Origin: Alphaproteobacteria bacterium | GTDB taxonomy: Bacteria; Pseudomonadota; Alphaproteobacteria; Bin95 | DNA length: 42,239 bases | Direction of reading: 5' to 3' | Assembly: GCA_022827685.1 (NCBI GenBank) | Contig: JAJEIH010000053.1 | Span: 64,056 to 106,294, forward strand | Part shown: positions 9,875 to 12,093 of the stretch, piece by piece | Position numbering within the stretch: position 1 is the first letter of the stretch | Layout of the letters: the number at the start of each line of letters is the position of its first letter | The notes under the pieces: generated by a model | What the model was told of the DNA's origin: nothing | What the model saw: only the letters and a program-made list of their open reading frames with translations | The model's database searches: none | Program-made: the position numbers and the translations under genes

Positions 9875-10012
9875 CGCGCCGGAAACCCCCTCTCCGCTCC
9901 TCGGGCAAGGTTAGGGCACGGAGGGGCGGGCCGCAATCGGCTTGTCGAAACCGTGGCCGGTCGCGGGCGATGGGCCTATGATGAGCCGCATGACGGGAGA
10001 GGAGGCTTGCGC

Positions 10013-10765
10013 ATGAGCGAGGCGATCAGGGTTTTCTGGCGGCCCGGCTGAACCAGCTGCCTGCGAACCAAGGAGTTCCTCTCGGTCCGTGGGATCGAGT
10101 TCGACAGTATCGACGTGACGACCCATCCGACCGGCATGGACATGCTGCGCGAACTCGGCGCGAAGTCGATCCCGGTCGTCTCGCGCGGCAGCGATTTCGT
10201 GTTCGCCCAGGCGATCTCGGACGTGGTGGCGTTTCTCGGCCTCGACGAGGATGTGGGCCCGGAGCTGACCATGGCGGAGCTGGCGGCGAAGCTCGACATG
10301 GTGCTGGCGGCCGCCGCGCGCTATGTGGCCCAGGTGCCGGACGACCGGCTCGGCGACAAGCTGCCGGGACGCGACCGCGCCTACCGCGTGCTCTTCCACC
10401 ACATCTTCAACATTGCGGACGCAACGATCTCGGCGATGGAGAGCGGGGAGCCCGTCAACTACGAGGCGCTGACCGCGCCGCCGCCGGACGACATGCAGAC
10501 CGTCGCCGACATCGTGGCCTATGGCGAGGCCGTGCGCGCGCGGGTCGCCCGCTGGTGGGAGGCGGGGCCGAAACCGGACCCGGTGGACACCTATTACGGC
10601 GCGCACGCGCTGCATGAGGTGTTCGAGCGCACCGTCTGGCACCCGGCCCAGCATGTCAGGCAACTCATGCTGATCCACGAGATGCTCGACATCGAGACCG
10701 ACGGGCCGCTCGGCGACGAGGATTTCCGAGGCCTGCCGCTTCCCGAGCAGGTCTGGGACGGCTGA
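10013..10765 (+). CDS. Glutaredoxin-DinB selenoprotein (in-frame TGA = selenocysteine)
   Basis: Read straight through, this gene encodes 250 residues with a TGA at codon 13 (bases 10049-10051). The start is ATG 10013 after a strong ribosome site (GGAGAGGAGG). The context is FWRPG-U-TSCLRTKEFL, so the TGA forms a UxxC redox motif where I recall glutaredoxin-like relatives having CxxC. Residues 1-75 form a thioredoxin-fold domain with the cis-Pro region KSIPVV. Residues from about 88 to the end resemble a DinB_2 four-helix domain, with His residues in LFHH and in ERTVWHPAQHVRQL that could bind metal. A hairpin 11 nt after the TGA could serve as SECIS. Standard gene callers would start at 10115 and lose the active site. 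The likely role is thiol-disulfide or peroxide chemistry; the substrate is unknown. It is coupled to chrA downstream. Confidence 0.88.
10063..10090 (+). promoter_or_regulatory. Candidate bacterial SECIS hairpin (glutaredoxin-DinB gene)
   Basis: The RNA can fold as GCG/CGU, an A-C mismatch, ACC/GGU, an asymmetric internal loop, then AGG/CCU closing an AGUU loop (10074-10077). The loop GU lies about 24 nt after the TGA. Bacterial SECIS elements are known to lie just inside the coding sequence after the UGA, with a G/U in the apical loop, and to bind SelB. This is the weakest of the three candidate hairpins here, but it has the same loop sequence. Confidence 0.6.
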
Positions 10766-12093
10766 GCGCGGAGACGCCGCCGCCGGCCGCGCCCGTCCCG
10801 TTCCGGGAGGCGCTCGCCGCCTGGACGCGGATCGGGTTCGCCAGCTTCGGCGGGCCGGCGGCGCAGATCGCGCTCATGCACCGCGTGGCGGTGGAGGAGA
10901 AGCGCTGGCTCGACGAGCCGCGTTTCCTCCATGCGCTCAATTTCTGCATGCTGCTGCCGGGGCCGGAGGCGCAGCAGCTCGCCACCTATACCGGCTGGCT
11001 GCTGCACGGCATACGCGGGGGCCTCGCGGCGGGCCTCCTGTTCATCCTGCCCGGCGCGGTCGTGATGGCCGCGCTGGCGGCGGTCTATGCGCTCTACGGG
11101 CGGCTGCCGGCGGTCGAGGCGGCCTTCCTCGGCGTCAAGGCGGCGGTGCTGGCGCTGGTGGTGGAAGCGCTGCTCCGCATCGGCGCGCGGGCGCTCAGGG
11201 ACGGTTTTGCATGGCTGCTGGCCTGCGGGGCGTTCGCCGCGCTCTTCCTGTTCGACGTGCCCTTCCCGGCCGTCATCGCCGCGGCGGCGCTGCTCGGCGG
11301 CGCGCGGGCGCTCTTCGGCGGCGGAAGCGGGGCAGGGGAGGCGGCCGCGCCTGCCGGTCCCGTCGCCTCAGCCGGCAGGCGGTCCGGAACCGGCAGGCTG
11401 GCGCTCCTGCTGCTCGCCGTCTGGCTGCTGCCGACGGCGGTTCTGCTCGCCTGGCTCGGCGGCGGGCACGTGTTCTCCGGCATCGCCGTCTTCTTCTCGA
11501 AGATGGCGGTGCTGACCTTCGGCGGGGCCTACGCCGTGCTCTCCTGGGTGGCGCAGGAGGCCGTGGCCGCGAGGGGCTGGCTCGCGCCCGGCGAGATGCT
11601 GGATGCGCTCGGGCTCGCCGAGACGACGCCCGGGCCGCTCATCCTGGTGGTGGAATTCGTGGGCTTCCTCGCGGCGTGGCGGGAGGCGGGCGGGCTCGAC
11701 CCCCTGGTCGCGGGGCTGCTGGGCGCGGGGCTCACGCTATGGGTCACGTTCGCGCCCTGCTTCCTGTTCATCTTCGCAGGCGCCCCGCATGTCGAGCGCC
11801 TCAGGGGCCGGCCCGGACTGCAGGCCGCGCTTGCCGGCGTGACGGCGGCCGTGGTGGGCGTGATCGCCAACCTCTCGGCCTGGTTCGCCCTCAACGTGCT
11901 GTTCGCCGAGGGCGCGCGGACGGAGGCGGGCCTGATCTCCGTCTATCTGCCGGACCCGGCGAGCCTCGACCTCAAGGCGCTCGCGCTCGCGGCGCTTGCA
12001 GCCGCCGCCCTCTTCGTGCTCCGCCTCGGCGCGTTCCGAACGCTTGCCGTCGCCGCCGTCGCCGGCCTCGCGCTCTTCGCCGCGGGGGTCTGA
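10762..12093 (+). CDS. chrA: Chromate transporter ChrA, probable CTG start
   Basis: This is a membrane protein of the CHR family that exports chromate or another oxyanion. It has two homologous halves, each opening with a FGG motif (FASFGGPAAQIALMH and LTFGGAYAVLSWV). The first ATG, at 10876, would cut off the conserved FASFGG segment. No ATG, GTG or TTG is available upstream in this frame over the preceding 80 nt. The best candidate is CTG 10762, which overlaps the stop of the selenoprotein gene as CTGA. That gives 443 residues, normal for the family, and implies translational coupling. A CTG at 10753 is also possible. The pairing with a thiol-redox selenoprotein is suggestive of oxyanion stress, but this is inference. 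Confidence 0.8.
   Translation: MSAETPPPAAPVPFREALAAWTRIGFASFGGPAAQIALMHRVAVEEKRWLDEPRFLHALNFCMLLPGPEAQQLATYTGWLLHGIRGGLAAGLLFILPGAVVMAALAAVYALYGRLPAVEAAFLGVKAAVLALVVEALLRIGARALRDGFAWLLACGAFAALFLFDVPFPAVIAAAALLGGARALFGGGSGAGEAAAPAGPVASAGRRSGTGRLALLLLAVWLLPTAVLLAWLGGGHVFSGIAVFFSKMAVLTFGGAYAVLSWVAQEAVAARGWLAPGEMLDALGLAETTPGPLILVVEFVGFLAAWREAGGLDPLVAGLLGAGLTLWVTFAPCFLFIFAGAPHVERLRGRPGLQAALAGVTAAVVGVIANLSAWFALNVLFAEGARTEAGLISVYLPDPASLDLKALALAALAAAALFVLRLGAFRTLAVAAVAGLALFAAGV

Follow-up and report, generated by a model that had tools for sequence, protein, structure and literature searches.

The native selenoprotein (PMC7642778) glutaredoxin cGrx1 of Clostridium oremlandii, which uses residue 13 for catalysis, combines a thioredoxin fold with a U/C-x-x-C motif and carries selenocysteine (Sec) in the attacking position. 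Sec is also found in the active site of the glutaredoxin-like UXX-star and HUGP/GUXX-star families (NF041114, NF041211, NF041212, NF047338, NF045501), and the NrdH and YruB-type redoxins are single domains using cysteine. An inventory of 2026 lists 119 prokaryotic selenoprotein families, which include glutaredoxin and several glutaredoxin-like proteins and no DinB protein (PMC13188914). Sec-containing glutaredoxins from sea water had been counted in early surveys, the text of which describes no fusions (PMC1088965). The DinB/YfiT proteins of the STL superfamily (BstA-H, mycothiol S-transferase, mycothiol-dependent maleylpyruvate isomerase) share a four-helix bundle and three conserved histidines, and these residues (H67, H160 and H164 of BstA) are thought to bind a metal that is needed for thiol transfer (PMC5815605).

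Here, we describe a gene that joins a glutaredoxin (Grx) domain to a DinB domain and, as judged from sequence comparison, almost certainly encodes a selenoprotein. It is located in a stretch of alphaproteobacterial DNA of 42,239 nucleotides, which is called the window below. In our view, the architecture makes Grx-DinB a new selenoprotein family, although its core chemistry is known, and it would add a new domain architecture to the 119 families listed in 2026. Among solved structures cGrx1 (7c10, 7c12) was the best profile match (E 7e-14), but this enzyme is a single 84-residue domain with a UPxC motif, whereas Grx-DinB has U-[TS]-S-C as its motif, set in W-x-P-x-U, and continues into a DinB domain. 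All matches to the UXX-star and HUGP/GUXX-star families were far below the curated NCBIfam cut-offs (29.6, 21.6 and 19.9 bits versus 66, 100 and 97 for UXX-star), which places the protein outside the UXX-star families, and none of the UXX-star and HUGP/GUXX-star proteins has been described with a DinB domain. The closest NCBIfam sub-groups of the Grx domain were those of NrdH (GlrX_NrdH, E 3e-11) and YruB (GlrX_YruB, E 4e-9), but these matches were also below cut-off. For members of the STL superfamily neither a Grx partner nor Sec has been described in the literature examined. The same two-domain protein is present in Caballeronia (WP_244817409) and Roseomonas (WP_207446294), where it is 41-46% identical and annotated just as 'glutaredoxin domain-containing' or 'DinB family' protein, but these forms have no stop in frame and presumably carry Cys for Sec, as do the 14 Cys forms that we read. 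A Grx-DinB selenoprotein was not found in the 119-family list, in a 2022 review (no mention of DinB), in NCBIfam (no fitting model) or in the openly searchable literature; single sequences may have been filed among the early sea-water glutaredoxin counts.

Reading frame and codon 13

The gene and its start region comprise the following features:

10013-10765, + strand: predicted Grx-DinB selenoprotein gene, 250 residues plus stop, ATG to TGA (translation with TGA as Sec, Pfam, homologues)
10000-10005, + strand: ribosome binding site AGGAGG, 7 nt 5' of the ATG at 10013 (read directly)
10049-10051, + strand: putative Sec-encoding TGA, codon 13, first position of U-T-S-C (71 distinct homologous genes compared)

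The initial annotation had described a frame that is intact from a strong ribosome site to the stop, with the TGA at 10049 in an RPG-U-TSC context. Direct reading of the sequence bore this out: the AGGAGG, which itself or as a like site is found upstream of most Grx-DinB homologues, precedes the ATG, and after the in-frame TGA the frame stays open up to the TGA at 10763-10765. It had also been stated correctly that the standard ORF starts at 10115; under the standard code, GTG 10115-10765 (216 amino acids) is the only ORF listed for this gene. Standard annotation would cut the active site and label the remainder 'DinB'.

A stop at codon 13, after which a standard gene caller finds an ORF only from 10115, is what one would see in a pseudogene or after a sequencing or assembly error, with a nonsense mutation that truncated the Grx domain and a downstream ORF in decay. 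However, the same in-frame TGA is present in 92 sampled alphaproteobacterial genomes (independent assemblies, each counted once) with protein identities down to about 42%, and it was kept in 7/7 close relatives (85-96% identical) from separate alphaproteobacterial MAGs. Moreover, dN/dS ratios of about 0.10-0.25 for close homologue pairs indicate purifying selection 3' of the TGA, the active-site and metal residues are invariant and the SECIS hairpin is conserved. We consider a decayed or misread gene refuted by the cross-species conservation of TGA and frame, and the probability left to it is minute. Translation from GTG 10115 or another internal start would yield a shorter protein, the DinB domain of which is intact in the 216-residue ORF, and the TGA would then end a short leader without any read-through. 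Against this, conservation extends over the residues that precede the TGA codon and over this codon itself (FWxPxU), all of which belong to the Grx fold, and the protein is continuous in the Cys forms. According to the structural model, a start at 10115 would deprive the Grx domain of strand 1, helix 1 and the active site. An internal start therefore appears very improbable.

Codon 13 was compared in 71 distinct homologous genes, which were examined without demanding any residue in the TGA column. Here, we found TGA in 57, TGC in 10 and TGT in 4 genes, and no other codon. All 14 distinct non-TGA homologues carry Cys, and Cys or TGA was seen in every homologue examined, which supports the proposal that Sec takes the first Cys position of a CxxC site to give a UxxC motif. 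An even sample of the class (385 genomes) contained 33 full-length homologues in 32 genomes, with a TGA copy in 19 genomes and Cys in 14 copies. Grx-DinB is kept through whole orders of Alphaproteobacteria: within the order to which the window belongs, each of the 14 genomes sampled had the TGA, and in a second order a TGA copy was found in 68 of 76 genomes. A wider sample of the phylum added only one genome (G066), which was already known.

The genome that carries the window encodes selA (538 bits), selB (435 bits) directly after it and selD (275 bits), as well as a tRNA-Sec with UCA anticodon that both Rfam and ARAGORN detected. Thus, the two observations on which the initial annotation had made its reading depend, Cys in the TGA column of homologues and a selenocysteine machinery in the genome, were both made. 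In the class sample, selA was found in 18/19 TGA genomes versus 3/12 Cys-only genomes (Fisher p ~1e-4, kinship ignored), and over all TGA genomes the proportion was 84/92. The remaining eight without a selA match are mostly fragmented MAGs, some of them nearly complete (G779, G803), and in four genomes that are not among these eight (G386, G783, G807, G818) selA is incomplete or split across contigs. UGA read-through as Trp or Cys occurs in some bacteria, and a suppressor tRNA or a reassigned code might insert another residue at codon 13. However, the column carries only Cys in homologues and never Trp, a genuine tRNA-Sec is present together with selA and selB, and the gene itself terminates in TGA, so that we regard this explanation as extremely unlikely. 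The four formate-dehydrogenase-like (FdhA-like) matches in the window's genome have no in-frame TGA though the Sec machinery is complete; therefore, the machinery is apparently not maintained for formate dehydrogenase, an explanation that we discarded. In L001, the selD match lies within an open frame of 748 residues with an NADH-dehydrogenase-like N-terminal part, and SelD is apparently fused there to a pyridine-nucleotide oxidoreductase.

RNA structure downstream of codon 13

10081-10099, + strand: predicted bacterial SECIS hairpin, stem 10082-10088 / 10092-10098, loop GUG 10089-10091, 37 nt after UGA

Published bacterial SECIS elements are defined by a loop of 3-9 nt with a G in the first two positions, a stem of 4-16 bp, a distance of 16-37 nt from the UGA and an energy of -7.5 kcal/mol or lower (PMC13188914). 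The hairpin at 10081-10099 falls within all these ranges (its loop is GUG, its stem has 7-8 bp and the isolated hairpin reaches -10.1 kcal/mol), and its 37-nt spacing is the upper limit of the published model. Folded as a single sequence, the 60-nt region gained no stability over shuffled versions (z -0.15), and a structure other than the conserved hairpin had the lowest energy. In 43 distinct Sec sequences, 96% of the stem cells were paired and two stem pairs keep pairing via changes on both sides; four sequences from two distinct lineages (f68; L137 of f67) have C-G in place of U-A, and a third lineage (L036) has G-C. In the Cys homologues, the same stem positions were paired in 42% and the GUG loop is lost.

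The codons of this region provided additional information. Arg at U+13 is encoded by CGT in 57/57 Sec genes versus 7.7% of their other Arg codons, and in the hairpin region TCG was used in 55/55 Sec genes (32% elsewhere in the same genes) and GGG in 47/47 (14% elsewhere). Such fixed synonymous positions point to a constraint at the RNA level. Only one of 14 Cys forms has Arg at +13; Sec forms would thus keep RNA-imposed residues that are lost in Cys forms.

For this region the initial annotation had suggested a hairpin at 10063-10090, which overlaps the conserved SECIS and is not identical to it. We rejected this candidate: a helix in this region had just 75% of cells paired, no two-sided change was seen and RNAalifold did not predict it. 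A second hairpin (10063-10079) lies just upstream of the SECIS and occurs at the same place in L044, L047 and L110-L138. It is perfect in the f67 clade (GAGACTC-AAA-GAGTTTC) and not conserved elsewhere, and it may help in this clade only.

Domain structure and conserved residues

10028-10183, + strand: glutaredoxin (thioredoxin-fold) domain, PF00462, residues 6-57, E 5e-9; fold match 2-78
10058-10060, + strand: Cys16, presumed resolving residue of UxxC, invariant in alignment A3 (46 sequences)
10394-10666, + strand: DinB/YfiT four-helix domain, PF12867 DinB_2, residues 128-218, E 3e-6; fold match about 84-234
10400-10402, + strand: His130, first presumed metal ligand, invariant in A3
10640-10642, + strand: His210, second presumed metal ligand, invariant in A3
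10652-10654, + strand: His214, third presumed metal ligand (HxxxH), invariant in A3

Both Pfam scores exceeded the cut-offs (36.6 versus 22.9 bits for PF00462, 28.3 versus 24.8 bits for PF12867). An AlphaFold2 model, for which 46 own and locus sequences served as input, reached a mean pLDDT of 95.4 and a pTM of 0.90. Its N-terminal part matched BC3987 (3zit, Z 13.0), cGrx1 (7c12, Z 11.8; 7c10, Z 11.6) and NrdH (Z 11.0). The C-terminal part matched DinB/YfiT proteins such as DR0053 (6iz2, Z 14.8, rmsd 2.3, 140 aligned) and also mycothiol-dependent enzymes; further matches in the STL superfamily were 2nsg (Z 12.8) and 8f5v (Z 11.7). A GST-like fold of the whole protein was rejected (TM about 0.29, rmsd 13-16). 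Taken together, Pfam, the model and the structural matches agree on a thioredoxin fold joined to a DinB-like four-helix domain, as had been proposed.

In alignment A3, residues W9, S15, C16, K20, P54, H130, H210 and H214 are invariant and position 13 is either U or C. The last two histidines show the HxxxH spacing of BstA H160/H164 (PMC5815605). The invariance of the three presumed ligands argues for the metal-binding DinB part of the initial annotation, with the binding itself predicted from sequence. Where glutaredoxins usually have the glutathione-binding Gly-Gly, the sequences that we read seem to have F[AG]Q-type residues instead.

Evolution and gene neighbourhood

When the tree was calculated with the Sec/Cys residue masked, the Sec/Cys label needed three changes, versus a mean of 12 for shuffled labels. 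This tree, some key branches of which are weak, may tentatively be read as starting from a Cys form, with Sec gained once and Cys regained twice. Four Cys rows are located inside the Sec part of the tree (G295, G157, G336 and the 63% complete G255), and no selA match was obtained in any of the four genomes. L053, L054 and L055 form a Cys subgroup (C-S-S-C-A-F-V-K-Q) inside the Sec part, no selA was found in their genomes, and Sec seems to have been replaced by Cys again in this subgroup. In G093 (L052, family f93), the Sec form nests within the f67 clade, whereas a second f93 genome, G295, contains a Cys form and gave no selA match, which suggests horizontal transfer. The Grx-DinB gene of G093 lies about 8 kb from selA.

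Both forms may occur in one genome: G306 carries a Sec and a Cys form on different contigs (L037, L058), and G809 and G814 each have a TGA copy and a stop-free copy. Such genomes offer a natural pair for the comparison of Sec with Cys. Since Sec and Cys forms exist in nature, sometimes within one genome, and since the Sec forms seem to keep RNA-imposed residues, cost and benefit of selenocysteine become directly testable.

The gene next to Grx-DinB is the following:

10762-12093, + strand: chromate transporter gene, PF02417, E 1e-70, overlaps the Grx-DinB stop, linkage in the same genus only

ORF clustering around 33 homologues and the window gave no conserved neighbourhood, only lineage-specific blocks, and a promoter/terminator scan gave no match. 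The chromate transporter adjoins the gene in the nine same-genus loci compared and in no other lineage. An operon with this gene was rejected because the linkage is confined to the genus, and the transporter is probably not part of Grx-DinB function. A role in defence (no PADLOC match) and a phage origin (phage matches cover the Grx part only) were also discarded.

Possible function

The selenoprotein reading combined with a Grx/DinB mechanism is, as a whole, the best explanation of our data, and we assign to it a probability of roughly 0.93. Under the direction of the hairpin at 10081-10099, SelB with Sec-tRNA(UCA) would decode UGA at codon 13, and the product would be a redox domain of the glutaredoxin/NrdH type with the active site U13-x-x-C16, fused to a DinB/YfiT-type domain. 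Sec13 would attack a disulfide or mixed disulfide, Cys16 would resolve the intermediate, and the thiol or thioredoxin system of the cell would re-reduce the protein. By analogy with the S-transferases of the STL superfamily, we expect the DinB domain to hold a divalent metal and to work on a low-molecular-weight thiol, thereby presenting or releasing the substrate. The motif, the fold matches, the invariant His triad and the STL precedent make it most likely that the protein is a thiol-disulfide oxidoreductase working with Sec, to which a domain for metal-dependent handling of thiols is attached. The dithiol redox role follows from the UxxC motif and is probable, indeed fairly secure, and coupling of the redox domain to thiol transfer is a tentative idea that we would put below even odds. 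Fast thiol or oxyanion chemistry had been offered as the use of Sec; the thiol-disulfide part agrees with the motif, and the oxyanion part found no support, with the chromate transporter adjacent in the window's own genus only.

The selenoprotein might also consist of independent domains, with Grx as general disulfide reductase and DinB for metal binding or stability only. This is in line with the variable neighbourhood and with other Grx fusions (hybrid Prx5; Grx/ferredoxin disulfide reductase fusion), but in A3 the three His and further DinB residues (W181, Y194, G196, R206, Q213, R216, Q217) are no less invariant than the Grx motif, and the two domains stay fused throughout the class as well as on beta-proteobacterial plasmids. 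We consider independent domains rather unlikely. Still less probable, and at best speculative, is a bifunctional selenoenzyme, the DinB metal of which would activate a thiol or substrate while Sec13 cleaves or forms an Se-S or C-S bond; to our knowledge, such a reaction of a selenol with a DinB metal is not known for either domain alone. The combination of NrdH-like and DinB features is a lead to a thiol reaction so far undescribed.

On a plasmid of Roseomonas marmotae (L140), a stop-free Grx-DinB gene is located between an isochorismatase gene and AtzG/amidase genes, and peptide ABC transporter genes precede this catabolic-looking set. These neighbours possibly hint at a catabolic substrate.
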